Part shown: positions 3,312 to 8,565 of the stretch, piece after piece
How positions within the stretch are numbered: position 1 is the first letter of the stretch
Layout: each line of letters begins with the position of its first letter
Virus record (IMG/VR): IMGVR_UViG_3300044765_000006
Location: 1-24,956 of that record
Reading direction: 5' to 3' (one strand)
DNA length: 24,956 nucleotides
DNA from: a virus
Made by a program: the position numbers and the translations under genes
The notes under the pieces: generated by a model
The model's database searches: none
Told to the model about the DNA's origin: nothing
What the model saw: only the letters and a program-made list of their open reading frames with translations

Positions 3312-3506
3312 ATGCCCAGCATATCCGGCAAACAGCATCGCTTCATGGAGATGGTCGACCATGATCCTGCGGCCGCCAAGCGCGTTGGCGTGCCTCAATC
3401 AGTCGGAAAAGACTTCGTCGCCGCTGACAAGGCGCAAGGGAAGCGTTTCGCTGGTCACAAGCCCGAGCATGCCAAGCGATTGGCTCATGCGCTGAAGAAG
3501 CGGTGA
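3312..3506 (+). CDS. small basic conserved phage protein
   Basis: A 64-residue Lys/His-rich protein beginning MPSISGKQHRFMEMVDHDP, with VPQSVGKDFVAADKAQGKRF in the middle and a basic tail. Proteins of this form (KQHR...GVPKSVGKEFVAAD) are common in phages and often lie just before terminase genes; their function is not known to me. It has its own 66-base leader (3246-3311) without an obvious Shine-Dalgarno sequence. It ends immediately before the tandem dyads that precede the small terminase gene. Confidence 0.7.
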   Translation: MPSISGKQHRFMEMVDHDPAAAKRVGVPQSVGKDFVAADKAQGKRFAGHKPEHAKRLAHALKKR

Positions 3507-3556
3507 GCCCATTATTTTAATGGGCATGCCCAATATTTAAATGGGCGAAAATGGGC
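3507..3556. repeat. tandem 19-bp dyads before terS
   Basis: GCCCATTATTTTAATGGGC at 3507-3525 and GCCCAATATTTAAATGGGC at 3528-3546 match at 17 of 19 positions and start 21 bp apart, two helical turns. Each is a GCCCA-N9-TGGGC dyad, and the junction forms a 12-bp palindrome TGGGCATGCCCA (3521-3532). A further TGGGC half-site is at 3552-3556, at the start of terS. This AT-rich spot in GC-rich DNA could be an operator or a terminase recognition site. No T run follows, so a terminator is unlikely. Confidence 0.6.
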
Positions 3557-3928
3557 AAGCAAACAGGCAGGCCACGCGGCCGTCCCAAGGGAGCGAAGAA
3601 CCGGCATACCGTGGAGCGGGAGGAGGCGATAGCCGAGGCTGCTGCACTGACACAGGAAGCGTTGGGTATACGCGCATTCGATGGCGATGCGCACGCGCTG
3701 CTGATGCTGGTCTACAAGGACACTGCGCAGCCGTTGGATTTGCGGCTCGACGCCGCGAAAGCCGCGATTGGCTACGAGAAACCCAAGCTCTCAGCCGTCG
3801 ATGCCAATGTGAACGGCGCCATGGGCCACTATGAAGCCCAGCCCATCCCAACCGAACACCGTCACAGTGATACCGTGGCGAGCCCAGCCGGGCCCGCAGC
3901 TAACGGCCATTCAGCACGACCTGGTTGA
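3551..3928 (+). CDS. terS: putative terminase small subunit
   Basis: A 125-residue protein immediately before the large terminase, overlapping it by 98 bases. It opens with a double AT-hook-like motif GRPRGRPKGAKNRHT, followed by helices and the segment PLDLRLDAAKAAIGYEKPKLSAVDAN, a pattern typical of the DNA-recognition gene paired with phage terminases. The C-terminal 40 residues are low-complexity and His/Pro-rich. The expected role is to recognise the packaging site and load TerL. An alternative ATG at 3541 is in another frame. The tandem dyads end within its first codons, so it may bind its own upstream region. Confidence 0.65.
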   Translation: MGKQTGRPRGRPKGAKNRHTVEREEAIAEAAALTQEALGIRAFDGDAHALLMLVYKDTAQPLDLRLDAAKAAIGYEKPKLSAVDANVNGAMGHYEAQPIPTEHRHSDTVASPAGPAANGHSARPG

Positions 3929-5288
3929 TGAGCTGCTCTACGGGGGTGCGGTATTCGGCGGGAAGTCAGATTTCTTGCTCGGTGACTTCGCGCAAGACGT
4001 GCCGCGTCCATATGGCAAATATTGGCACGGCATCCTCTTCCGCAAGAGCTACAAGCAGCTCGAGGATCTAATCGCCCGCTCGAAGGAGATTTATCCCCAG
4101 TGGTTCCCGGGGTGCAAATGGACCGGCAGCAGTAAAGAGTTAGAGAAGGCATGGGTATGGCCGAACGGCGCAACACTCCGCATGCGCCATATGGATCATC
4201 AGGACGACTGGCAGGAATACTGGGGCCACGCCTATACCTGGATCGGCTGGGACGAGCTTGCGCTATGGCCCAGCTCAGTCGCATACAAGATGCTCAAGGC
4301 CCGCTTGCGCAGTGCTCAGGCCAACATCCCGAACAAGCGCATACGCGCCTCCGCGAATCCTGGCGGCCCTGGACATCACTGGGTGCGAGCGCATTTCAAA
4401 ATCGACGAGTACCCGCTCGGCGGTCAGATCTTCGAGGAGGATGGAATGCGCCGCCTCTTTATTCGTGCGCGGATGGCTGACAACAAGATCGGCATGCAGA
4501 ACGATCCGAAGTACGAATCGCGCATGGACGGTTTGGGATCGCCTCAACTGGTAAAAGCTCTGAAAGAGGGCGACTGGAGCATCATTGCCGGGGCGTACTT
4601 CCCCGAGTTCAATCCCGACCGACATGTCGTGCGCCCCTTCGAGATCCCGAAGTATTGGGCGCGCATCCGCGGCATGGACTGGGGCTCGGCCAAGCCGTTC
4701 TGTGTTCTATGGGCAGCGGTCTCTGACGGCAGTATTCCCGAAATACCACGCGGCTGGCTCGTCATCTATCGCGAGTGGTATGGCTGGAATGGGGAGCCGA
4801 ATACCGGTTGCAAGATGCCAGCAGAGAAGGTCGGGGCCGGAATCAAGGATCTCGAGACCGGCGAAAAGATGGCGGATGAGGTGCTCGACCCGGCCGCATT
4901 CGCACGCGATGGAGGGCCTAGCATCGCAGAGCGCCTTGATTTAGGGTTCCGGCGGGCTGACAACTCCCGGGTGGCGCAGGGCGGACGGATGGGCGGTTGG
5001 GATCAAGTTAGAGCACGGCTCGATGCGACTGAGACGCCCGGTCTCATCGTCTTTTCCACTTGCACGCATCTCATCCGCACGCTGCCGGCGCTCCAGCACG
5101 ACAAGCACAAGCCGGAAGACGTCGACACCGAGAGCGAGGACCACGCGCCGGATACGCTGCGGTATATCTGCATGTCACGCCCGGTGACCCGCGACAAGCC
5201 GAAGGATCAGCCGGCCCGGTTCCCGACCGATTTAACTATCAGCGAACTCGTAAAGCGCCAGACGCAGCGGCGCTTGTCGGAGCAGTAA
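3831..5288 (+). CDS. terL: terminase large subunit
   Basis: The packaging motor that cuts concatemeric DNA and pumps it through the portal. Of 485 residues, the N-terminal ATPase has Walker A GGAVFGGKS (38-46), Walker B WIGWDE (137-142, catalytic E142) and the coupling motif SANPGG (174-179). The C-terminal RNase H-like nuclease shows GMDWG (D283), LDPA (353-355) and EDHAPD (D437/D441). Length and motifs are complete. The annotated ATG overlaps terS by 98 bases; a GTG at 3867 would shorten both the overlap and the unconserved N-terminus, and neither has a strong ribosome site. It is followed without a gap by a small beta-rich gene. Confidence 0.93.
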   Translation: MKPSPSQPNTVTVIPWRAQPGPQLTAIQHDLVDELLYGGAVFGGKSDFLLGDFAQDVPRPYGKYWHGILFRKSYKQLEDLIARSKEIYPQWFPGCKWTGSSKELEKAWVWPNGATLRMRHMDHQDDWQEYWGHAYTWIGWDELALWPSSVAYKMLKARLRSAQANIPNKRIRASANPGGPGHHWVRAHFKIDEYPLGGQIFEEDGMRRLFIRARMADNKIGMQNDPKYESRMDGLGSPQLVKALKEGDWSIIAGAYFPEFNPDRHVVRPFEIPKYWARIRGMDWGSAKPFCVLWAAVSDGSIPEIPRGWLVIYREWYGWNGEPNTGCKMPAEKVGAGIKDLETGEKMADEVLDPAAFARDGGPSIAERLDLGFRRADNSRVAQGGRMGGWDQVRARLDATETPGLIVFSTCTHLIRTLPALQHDKHKPEDVDTESEDHAPDTLRYICMSRPVTRDKPKDQPARFPTDLTISELVKRQTQRRLSEQ

Positions 5289-5618: not shown

Positions 5619-6334
5619 GTCTGCGCGCTGTCGCCGGCATCAGTTCAGCCGTCGCCAACATTCTGGCGAAATGCGGCATCCCGTTCATCATCGCGCCCAC
5701 CGGCACGATGGGGAACAACGGCGCGATTACGCTAGGAACCGCGCTCCCGACGACCTACGCCAACGCGTATATCTACCTGCCGGCCAATGCGATTCAGGCC
5801 GGCTCATCGGTGGGCTGGTACTTCTGCCAGATGTCCTCCGCGACCGTGGGCACGGTGTTCAACAACACCTACACCACGGGCGTGCCGAGCATCCCGGCGA
5901 GTCCGACGGCATTCGTCTCGACCGGCCCAGGTGCTTATACCGGTGTGACGACCGCGGTTAGCGGACCGCAGATCTCGATCCCGGCTGGGTCGCTCGGAAT
6001 CCTCGGGGAGCTTCGTACGGCCGCCTTGTGTGGCACAATCAACAACGCCAATACCAAGACTCTCACCCTCACGGTGGGCGGTAGCACGGTTAAGAGCCTC
6101 GCGATCACGACGAGTGTTTCGTGCGAAGTGCTCAGTACCGTCTACTGTCGCGGCAGCCAATCGGCTCAGGTGAGCCACGCCAGCGGCCAGTTTGGACCCG
6201 GCACGGCTGGCGGATCTCCCGTTTACAACAGCATCAATTTCGCCAACGCTCAGACTTGGATTCTGGGCGGTCAACTTGCAGTTGCGACGGACTTTCTGGT
6301 GCTCGAAGCCTTCGCGATTGAAGTAATGCCGTAA
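5615..6334 (+). CDS. putative virion structural protein, beta-rich
   Basis: A 239-residue protein from GTG at 5615. It is almost free of charged residues and dominated by Thr, Ser, Ala, Gly and Val: AITLGTALPTTYANAYIYLPANAI, VGTVFNNTYTTGVPSIPASP, TKTLTLTVGGSTVKSLAI. Similar modules occur in phage fibre and decoration proteins, so a surface-exposed virion role is likely but not proven. Together with the preceding gene it separates terminase from portal. The stop overlaps the portal ATG by one base (TAATG at 6332-6336). Confidence 0.6.
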   Translation: MSLRAVAGISSAVANILAKCGIPFIIAPTGTMGNNGAITLGTALPTTYANAYIYLPANAIQAGSSVGWYFCQMSSATVGTVFNNTYTTGVPSIPASPTAFVSTGPGAYTGVTTAVSGPQISIPAGSLGILGELRTAALCGTINNANTKTLTLTVGGSTVKSLAITTSVSCEVLSTVYCRGSQSAQVSHASGQFGPGTAGGSPVYNSINFANAQTWILGGQLAVATDFLVLEAFAIEVMP

Positions 6335-8565
6335 TGGCGGAGAAAGCCACTACGGATAAAGCAGCCGAAGCGCGCCGCTGGAAGCGCGAGATAATGCTAG
6401 CCAGCAAGCGCGAGAAGGACTGGCGCGATGAGGCTGAAAAGGTCGTCAAGCGCTATCGCGGCGAGGAGAAGAAGCGCAATCGCTACAACGTGCTTTGGGC
6501 TACTACCGAGACGCTCCGTCCCGCTGTTTACAACAGCAAGCCAAACCCTGATGTACGCCGCCGCTTCCGGGACTCTGACCCGCTCGGAAAGGCGGTTGGC
6601 GAGGTGCTCGAGCGCTCGCTGTTCGTCATGTTCGATTCAGACGAGCCGGATGCGGCAATCCGCAATGACGTGCTCGATGGATTGCTTTCAGGCCGCGGTG
6701 TCTCGCGCATCAAGTACGTTCCGAAGCTGAGTCAGTCAGGGACCGCGCCCACCAAACCGAAGGTCGAATCAGAAGATATCGGCGGCAGCGAGCCGCATGA
6801 GGATGACGAAGGATCATACGAGCAGGTCGAGTACGAACAGACCTGTCTCGAGCACGTCGACTGGCGTGATTATCGCCAGGGCTATGGCCGCACCTGGGAC
6901 GAAGTGCCGTGGAATGGCTTTCGACACAAAATGATTCGCTCGGATGCGGAATCGAAGTTCGGCAAGGAAGCTGTAGCGACAATTACCTTCGCCCAGCCGA
7001 ACACGGACGATCCAAAGAAGCCGACCGAAGAAGCCGGCGAGACACAGAAGGTCGCCGAGTTTTGGGAGATCTGGGACAAGCTCGGTCAGCGGGTGTTTTT
7101 CATTCAGGAGGATCTCGAGCAGCTCCTATTCCCGCTCGACAATCCCGATGGCTCGCCCCCGCTCGACTTCGAAGGCTTCTTCTGCTGCCCCGAGCCGCTG
7201 AAGATGATCGAGAATACCGGGTCGCAGATCCCCATCATCCCGTTCACGCTCTACGAGAACCAGGCCAACGAGCTCGACAAGATCTCGGTACGCATCGATC
7301 GCATCGTGAATGTCTGCCGCCTGCGCGGCATCTATGATTCGAAGCTGCCGGAGATTCCAGATCTCCTTGCGGGCGACGATAACGAGCTGACACCGGTTCA
7401 GAACGCGCAGCAATGGTCTGACAAGGGGCTGGATGCGGCAATCGCTTGGATGCCGGTAGAGAAGCTCCAGGCGGTTCTGGCGACGCTCTACGATGCTCGT
7501 GAGAAGCAGCTGGCCATCATCGATCAGCTCACTGGCGTTTCCGACATCGTCCGCGGCGCCACCGACCCGAATGAGACTGCGACCGCTCAGCAGATCAAGA
7601 GCAACTATCATTCGCTGCGGCTCGGGCGCATGCAGGGCGAGGTGAAACGGTACGTCAAGGATCTGATGCGGCTCGCCTCTCAGGTCATGAGCAGCAAGTT
7701 CGCTGCTGAGACATTCGCGGCGATGACGGATCTGAAGTTTCCGACGCCTCAGGAGAAGCAGGAGCTTCAGATCAAAGCGCAGATGCTGGCGCAGCAGCCG
7801 CAGATCCCTGGCCAGCCCCCGCCACAACCGCCTCCGGAGCTCGTACAAGCCCTGCAGGTTCCGACCTGGGAAGACATCCTAGGGATGATGCATTCGCCGG
7901 CCCTGCGTCAGTTCCGGGTCGACGTAGAGACTGATTCGACCATTGCGGCGATGCTCGATTCGGACATGACGGCCCTGTCAGCACTGCTGAAAGCAATTTC
8001 GCAGATGCTCATGGAACTGGCGCCATTGGTGCAGTCTGGCGCCCTCCCGGTCGAGGCCGCGAAAGAGATCGTCATGGCGGTTATCCGGCGCGCGCGGCTT
8101 GGCACGGCCGTCGAGGATGCCTTCGACAAGATGCAGATGCCGAAGCCACCCCCGCAACCTCAGGACCATGCTATCGAGGTGGCGCAGATCAATGCCGCCT
8201 CACACGAGAAGATCGAGGGAGCGAAGCTCCAGGCCGCCGGGCAGACCGCGCAGATTGAGCAGGCGGCCCAAGCTCAGCAGCGCCAAGCCGAGTTGGAAAT
8301 GGAACTGCGCAGAACGCAGCTCGAGGCCGATATCGAGATCCGAAAGGATGCCCAAGAGAAGCAACACGAGTTGTCGCTCAAGACGGCCGAGCACGATCTC
8401 GAACTCAGGAAGCTTGCGGCTCAACTTGAAAATGAGCGGCTAATCGCTGATGCGAACAACCAGACCAAGATCATGGTGGCTGAGATTGCCGCCAAAGCGC
8501 AGCAAGCCGCGGCCGCCATGACGGCGGCGAATTACGAGAAGGAAGAAGAGGGTGTCGATGCGTAG
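6334..8565 (+). CDS. portal protein
   Basis: At 743 residues this is the size of podovirus (P22-type) portals, the dodecameric ring at the packaging vertex. Typical features are an N-terminal stem region with AVYNSKPNPDVRRRFRD (about 65-80), a central region with IVRGATDPNETATAQQIKSN (about 404-423) followed by a helix of the kind that lines the channel, and a long C-terminal extension. The extension has a Pro/Gln-rich segment (about 489-505) and then a Gln/Glu/Ala-rich coiled coil (about 610-743), which may form the barrel seen in P22-like portals. The ATG overlaps the upstream stop by one base. Confidence 0.85.
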   Translation: MAEKATTDKAAEARRWKREIMLASKREKDWRDEAEKVVKRYRGEEKKRNRYNVLWATTETLRPAVYNSKPNPDVRRRFRDSDPLGKAVGEVLERSLFVMFDSDEPDAAIRNDVLDGLLSGRGVSRIKYVPKLSQSGTAPTKPKVESEDIGGSEPHEDDEGSYEQVEYEQTCLEHVDWRDYRQGYGRTWDEVPWNGFRHKMIRSDAESKFGKEAVATITFAQPNTDDPKKPTEEAGETQKVAEFWEIWDKLGQRVFFIQEDLEQLLFPLDNPDGSPPLDFEGFFCCPEPLKMIENTGSQIPIIPFTLYENQANELDKISVRIDRIVNVCRLRGIYDSKLPEIPDLLAGDDNELTPVQNAQQWSDKGLDAAIAWMPVEKLQAVLATLYDAREKQLAIIDQLTGVSDIVRGATDPNETATAQQIKSNYHSLRLGRMQGEVKRYVKDLMRLASQVMSSKFAAETFAAMTDLKFPTPQEKQELQIKAQMLAQQPQIPGQPPPQPPPELVQALQVPTWEDILGMMHSPALRQFRVDVETDSTIAAMLDSDMTALSALLKAISQMLMELAPLVQSGALPVEAAKEIVMAVIRRARLGTAVEDAFDKMQMPKPPPQPQDHAIEVAQINAASHEKIEGAKLQAAGQTAQIEQAAQAQQRQAELEMELRRTQLEADIEIRKDAQEKQHELSLKTAEHDLELRKLAAQLENERLIADANNQTKIMVAEIAAKAQQAAAAMTAANYEKEEEGVDA

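Follow-up and report, generated by a model that had tools for sequence, protein, structure and literature searches.

The ordinary job of the small terminase subunit (TerS) is to mark DNA for packaging. How TerS reads the bases of packaging sites has been called a question unanswered after forty years, and a helix-turn-helix has been assumed to be universal in TerS (PMC9611059). In the phages lambda, 21 and N15, cosB and the 5′ end of terS are exchanged together and packaging specificity moves with them, via a helix-turn-helix (PMC4669245, PMC9026076), and both lambda cosB and SPP1 pac occupy the same place as the sites that we describe here (PMC4669245, PMC4737164). Herein we analyzed a stretch of viral DNA of 24,956 nucleotides (IMG/VR record IMGVR_UViG_3300044765_000006, hereafter the window), in which a block of short repeats abuts a putative terS. 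Judged from sequence, this block is probably the phage's own TerS recognition site (of the pac/cosB type), which would be read by an N-terminal arm of TerS and would mark the DNA for packaging.

The repeat block and the neighboring packaging genes

The block contains two 19-bp dyads of the form GCCCA-N9-TGGGC, GCCCATTATTTTAATGGGC at positions 3507–3525 and GCCCAATATTTAAATGGGC at 3528–3546, which are identical at 17 of 19 positions, have a start-to-start offset of 21 bp, and create at their junction a perfect 12-bp palindrome, TGGGCATGCCCA (3521–3532), that can be read directly from the sequence. They are the only two exact matches to GCCCA-N9-TGGGC in the 24,956-bp record, while shuffled windows held on average 0.045 exact sites and a tandem pair in 0 of 400 cases. 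A further direct half-site, ATGGGC (3551–3556, + strand), lies 10 bp past the right arm of dyad 2 and overlaps the start codon of terS, such that TGGGC recurs at 3552–3556 within the first two codons (Met-Gly). The A+T content of the 40-bp block is 60% against a mean of 40%, a value reached by only 0.6% of the 40-mers in the window. The first-pass annotation had reported the tandem dyads, their junction palindrome, the additional half-site at the start of terS and the AT-rich character of the block within GC-rich DNA, and all four descriptions held when they were recomputed.

Dyad 1 directly abuts the stop codon of a small upstream ORF (3312–3506, + strand; 64 aa, phrog_16759). The family to which this ORF (MPSISGKQHRFM...) belongs is widespread in phages (177 IMG/VR stretches), and among the PHROG matches of the ORF are large structural proteins of the virion that match it over their first ~56 residues. 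On the other side of the block, the ORF at 3551–3928 (+ strand; 125 aa, protein P0001) lies directly upstream of, and overlaps, the gene for the large terminase (TerL; 3831–5288, + strand; PHROG terminase large subunit, E 5.6e-27), and a portal protein gene of the packaging/head module is found at 6334–8565 (+ strand; phrog_12082, E 1.3e-153). Between positions 8001 and 10000 the window has a strong AT skew of about 0.24–0.25 compared with its remainder.

The sole PHROG match of P0001 is phrog_15261, a family of unknown function, with no match to a curated TerS, and the protein resembles Pfam DUF5681, likewise of unknown function, only weakly and below the cut-off of that family. The overlap between terS and TerL is laid out in the same way in the relatives, the homolog in Synechococcus phage Yong-M2-251 is annotated as TerS, and relatives of another body type match the TerS families phrog_641 and phrog_18735 as well as phrog_15261. 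Because it overlaps TerL and because relatives of that other body type match phrog_641/phrog_18735, the 125-aa ORF is very probably TerS. NCBIfam and Pfam gave no name for any of these TerS proteins, and a DUF5681 family search of five genomes returned no match there or in the control genomes, which makes it uninformative.

The first 17 codons of terS (MGKQTGRPRGRPKGAKN; 3551–3601, + strand) would encode the DNA-reading arm that we propose, whose GRPRGRP stretch is AT-hook-like and covaries with the site. The AT-hook-like motifs that had been ascribed to the adjacent small terminase are indeed present, P0001 having a GRP core with basic flanks (GRPRGRPKG). In a structural model of moderate confidence (mean pLDDT 66), residues 1–17 are unstructured and helices span residues 18–38, 47–56 and 62–73, with neither a helix-turn-helix nor a winged helix-turn-helix evident. 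A Foldseek search of PDB with the TerS model gave no match at E ≤ 0.001, and a profile search of PDB sequences matched nothing but a 25-residue stretch of an unrelated molecule. On our best reading, the site would be read by an arm that belongs to no recognised helix-turn-helix.

Covariation of site and TerS N-terminus

Our first set of relatives consisted of IMG/VR loci with a similar TerS, which at the same place before terS carry palindromes and direct half-sites at a phase of about 10 bp. Across dozens of phages, the half-site sequence tracks the class of the GR-containing (AT-hook-like) TerS N-terminus, i.e., its first ~20 amino acids: TGxPRGRP occurs with CCCA-N9-TGGG (class A), GGxRPGAGR with TTGA-N7-TCAA (class B), and KTGGR with TCTA-N3-TAGA (class C). 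Two rarer classes combine the palindrome GAGCTA/TAGCTC with R[VI]GGRQKG (L197, L205) and near-perfect GGTATTATAATACC palindromes with GNYxxGPGRPPGR(KN) (L248–L251, from alphaproteobacterial genomes). A GRP core with basic flanks characterizes class A (GRPRGRPKG) and class E; many members of the other classes have GR without P, and classes B–D are often without GRP. Similar TerS bodies can also carry different pairs at the same place, namely AAATAGAC iterons with KTGGRKKG (L006–L008) and TTTGATT/AATCAAA with RGGxRxGAGR (L009, L011, L015). Two separately found phages, Synechococcus phage Yong-M2-251 (TTGAAAAACAATCAA) and Rhizobium phage RHph_I3_18 (TTGAAACGAATTCAA), fit the class rules, and in homologs without a GR arm (L259, L221, L232) no site was found. 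The near-identical phages L006 and L007 differ by one AAATAGACG iteron directly upstream of terS, so half-site copy number varies. A further class may be represented by L242 and L243, whose TerS bodies are of a third type (GLLPHEWLL) and whose start codons are preceded by candidate CTCCA/TGGAG words.

In class A, a single dyad is usually accompanied by one or two direct half-sites. Two dyads occur in L003/L013 and one in L014, L178, L179, L183 and L184, with a degenerate version in L004 and several half-sites in L010. Dyad 1 of the window is a class-A palindrome (CCCA-N9-TGGG) that has one change in L013 (CCCCATTATTTTAATGGGC), and dyad 2 sits where the only dyad of most class-A relatives is found. 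The comparison of this spacer across relatives, which the first-pass annotation had proposed, gave a divided answer: the half-site content is common to most relatives with the same N-terminus, and the tandem second dyad is confined to the window and its nearest relative, L003/L013. The dyads are not missing from close relatives, which had been named as grounds for dropping the idea, as the site is present in L003 and L014 and degenerate in L004.

The class rules were recorded before a second set of loci was fetched by protein profile (the scoring regular expressions were slightly looser), and a locus was scored positive if the palindrome of its own class occurred with at most one mismatch in the 70 bp upstream of TerS. 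Using this approach, TTGA-N7-TCAA was found in 28 of 40 held-out class-B loci and in 0 of 10 from other classes, TCTA-N3-TAGA in five of nine class-C loci (other classes 0/41), and the class-A site in the single class-A locus (other classes 0/49), against a background of 0.4–3.6% for random 70-mers or for the DNA preceding other ORFs. For all loci together the Fisher p-values were 6e-9 (A), 2e-11 (B) and 2e-9 (C), which are optimistic owing to relatedness. At one mismatch or fewer, between roughly one third and one half of the class members have no site, many of these misses being versions with two mismatches, with N6 spacing or with iterons only. The class-B site is truly absent from a clade with a longer N-terminus, e.g., TEKxSxxxKGGxRPGSGRK (L273, L282–L285, L307), where another half-site is possible. 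In Caulobacter phage DMCA (PQ480021, positions 3426–4000; L169), a homing endonuclease gene lies directly upstream of a class-A TerS, and the site is not recognisable.

The reverse test used DNA patterns only and covered 2.9 million viral contigs in IMG/VR. The class-B pattern TTGAN7TCAANGGAAATCAAA had 17 matches, 13 of which directly precede an ORF whose N-terminal region contains GGxRxxAGR; of the 13, three are almost the same sequence and two come from records used before, which leaves nine that are new and distinct. The bodies of these proteins are of at least four kinds (the TPLDYML type, the ALLDRGHGKPKQ type in L361/L369, L370, and L376), and where the contig continues, the large-terminase ORFs downstream belong to several PHROGs. 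The class-C pattern TCTAN3TAGAN4GANTAGATGG matched six times, five times followed by a KTGGR ORF (two of these already known), and class-C patterns never preceded class-B ORFs, nor class-B patterns class-C ORFs. A stricter class-A pattern had the record of L286 as its sole match, and class A is therefore without an independent reverse test. Within 289 alphaproteobacterial genomes, the class-B site pattern had no match.

Arm and site also move together between TerS bodies. L228 and L220 have 75-aa bodies that are 88% identical, yet their N-termini and sites differ, one combining MRGGKRPNAGRK with TTGAAAAAGAATCAA and the other KTGGRKKG with TCTAAAGTAGA. Further swap pairs are L275/L299 (78% body identity), L183/L198 (75%), L011/L178 (71%) and L009/window (65%), and L286 carries a window-type (class-A) arm and site on another body type. 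A tree of the bodies alone requires at least 25 changes of N-terminal class by parsimony; few of its forks are well supported, only two to three independent pairs fall on well-supported branches (nearly all of which agree), and the tree is weak support because its 75 columns leave most forks open. The covariation, the two DNA-only reverse searches and the natural N-terminal swaps give strong support to the early suggestion that the adjacent TerS could recognise the site, and on these sequence comparisons it is highly probable that the N-terminal arm is the part that does so.

Array architecture and competing explanations

Distances between direct half-sites cluster at 9–11 bp and multiples thereof, and inverted half-sites are spaced, start to start, by 13 bp in class A, 11 bp in class B and 7 bp in class C, which taken together indicates phasing on the DNA. 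We propose that a half-site consists of an A/T-rich stretch ending in T and followed by a class-specific word, as in ATGGG(C) of the window, and that one TerS subunit would read each of them with its short, GR-rich N-terminal arm. Because half-sites of both orientations, inverted and direct, recur roughly once per turn of the helix, several arms could bind together, and a TerS oligomer may thus occupy the phased array with its arms side by side. Bound TerS would mark the phage DNA and recruit TerL, with packaging starting nearby, as for lambda-like cosB and SPP1 pac. The sequences themselves show the site, its phasing, its covariation with the N-terminus, its portability and its single occurrence per genome; that TerS physically binds, that each half-site takes one arm and that the array serves packaging is what we infer, and given recognition, a packaging role seems quite likely. 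A repeated, TerS-specific sequence next to or within terS, at one locus per genome, is one of the hallmarks of a pac/cosB site, and this is what we find. The contig ends of the fetched loci, taken as a proxy for cos ends, are spread out with no cluster near terS and therefore give no support for a fixed end.

We lean, with some reserve, towards the broader reading that many TerS use a GR-rich arm of ~17 residues with a readable code rather than a helix-turn-helix, and that a cassette of ~100 bp comprising arm and site has passed between unrelated bodies of TerS and between families of TerL. The code that we tentatively favor would assign WTGGG to TGxPRGRP, WTCAA to GGxRPGAGR, RTAGA to KTGGR, TAGCTC to R[VI]GGR and ATACC to GPGRPPGR. 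With site and reader codons back to back within ~100 bp, the two could be exchanged as a single unit of specificity.

The same arrangement could instead reflect an operator only, at which TerS represses its own late operon, either at transcription or by blocking the ribosome-binding region, while packaging starts elsewhere. Class-B records with a match contain one AT-rich site per record, and this essential uniqueness argues against a regulon, but one site per genome, placed before the gene that encodes its reader, is also what autoregulation would give. The extension of the array up to and into the start codon, seen in classes B and C as well, would fit autoregulation, and in class B the half-sites also flank an AAGGAAA ribosome-binding stretch. 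The window site, however, lies between two co-directional genes directly 3′ of a stop codon, no promoter-like match was found there on the coding strand, and covariation with a packaging protein needs no regulation. We therefore consider a purely autoregulatory site unlikely, and the packaging and autoregulatory roles could coexist.

Since the site adjoins the N-terminal codons, the two are exchanged together, and as they recombine in one piece the upstream DNA and 5′ terS codons might simply be co-inherited with repeats that have no function. Such a linkage artefact is very improbable. In an information profile of class B, for which the palindrome arm positions served to pick the sites, the upstream flank is nearly random (about 0–0.3 bits per column) whereas the palindrome arms and the third half-site carry information, which points to selection on the site itself; in addition, the direct half-sites are conserved, half-sites hold the ~10-bp phase in different arrangements, and the same pair of site and arm occurs with unrelated bodies and TerL families. 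This last observation, together with nearly the same body carrying different site classes, also makes it very doubtful that TerS binds through another of its parts, or that TerL is the base-specific reader, with the N-terminal class merely correlated, even if the structural evidence for the arm is a single model of moderate confidence.

An RNA element, i.e., a leader hairpin that controls terS translation or terminates transcription, is scarcely credible. The window stretch folds somewhat better than its shuffles (z −2.07), but for the 45 nt upstream the mean z is only −0.43 in class A, −0.33 in class B and −0.13 in class C, with 3–6% of loci below −2, and in L011 and L210, which have only or mainly direct repeats, the hairpin therefore cannot form. 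The block showed no terminator-like site, and an intrinsic terminator or RNA leader structure was rejected as a candidate, folding over all classes being no better than in shuffles. That some regulator other than TerS, of host or phage origin, binds here is equally hard to credit, for although the class-B arms TTGA/TCAA resemble an Fnr/FixK box (TTGAT-N4-ATCAA), the majority spacing is N7 rather than N6 (42 vs 9), the sites lie 10–30 bp from the start codon, near-identical bodies switch sites along with their TerS N-termini, and cyanophages (L254) also have class B, as does, in the form of half-sites, a Pseudomonas phage (L385).

Relation to known recognition systems

Preferring, as above, a TerS recognition site read by the N-terminal arm, we place the block within a known kind of element, of which the reader and its modular code are apparently new; a literature search, which missed most subscription journals, found no description of an AT-hook/GR-arm TerS or of class-wise sites. 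Site and reader are recognisable by sequence in many phages, with at least five specificities and natural swap pairs, and recognition can thus be tested with short DNAs and peptides. If the reading is true, it would give a function to the unknown family phrog_15261, which is matched by P0001 and by relatives of several body types, would make the packaging site predictable from raw sequence in uncultured phages, and would be relevant to the choice of DNA that a phage packages during transduction.

AT-hook proteins, which bind the minor groove through a GRP core, resemble the arms of classes A and E in their GRP core and basic flanks, and the sites here have A/T-rich centres. Apart from a preference for A/T runs, canonical AT-hooks show little specificity, whereas the words that flank these centres are class-specific (GGG, CAA, AGA, AGCTC and ACC). 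In SPP1/SF6 pac, as here, repeats lie before and at the start of the small-terminase gene, but SF6 TerS shows no sequence preference when it binds pac DNA in vitro (PMC4737164), while the class-wise covariation that we observe implies specificity. Lambda TerS has a winged helix-turn-helix where our candidate reader is a GR-rich arm of ~17 residues with no recognised helix-turn-helix, and the lambda R sites, accompanied by an IHF site and an adjoining cosN, are spread over more than 100 bp, in contrast to the half-sites packed at ~10 bp here. Like the present system, the cosB R sites and gpNu1 of lambda, 21 and N15 pair the N-terminus of TerS with short, phage-specific repeats of mixed orientation next to terS (PMC4669245, PMC9026076).
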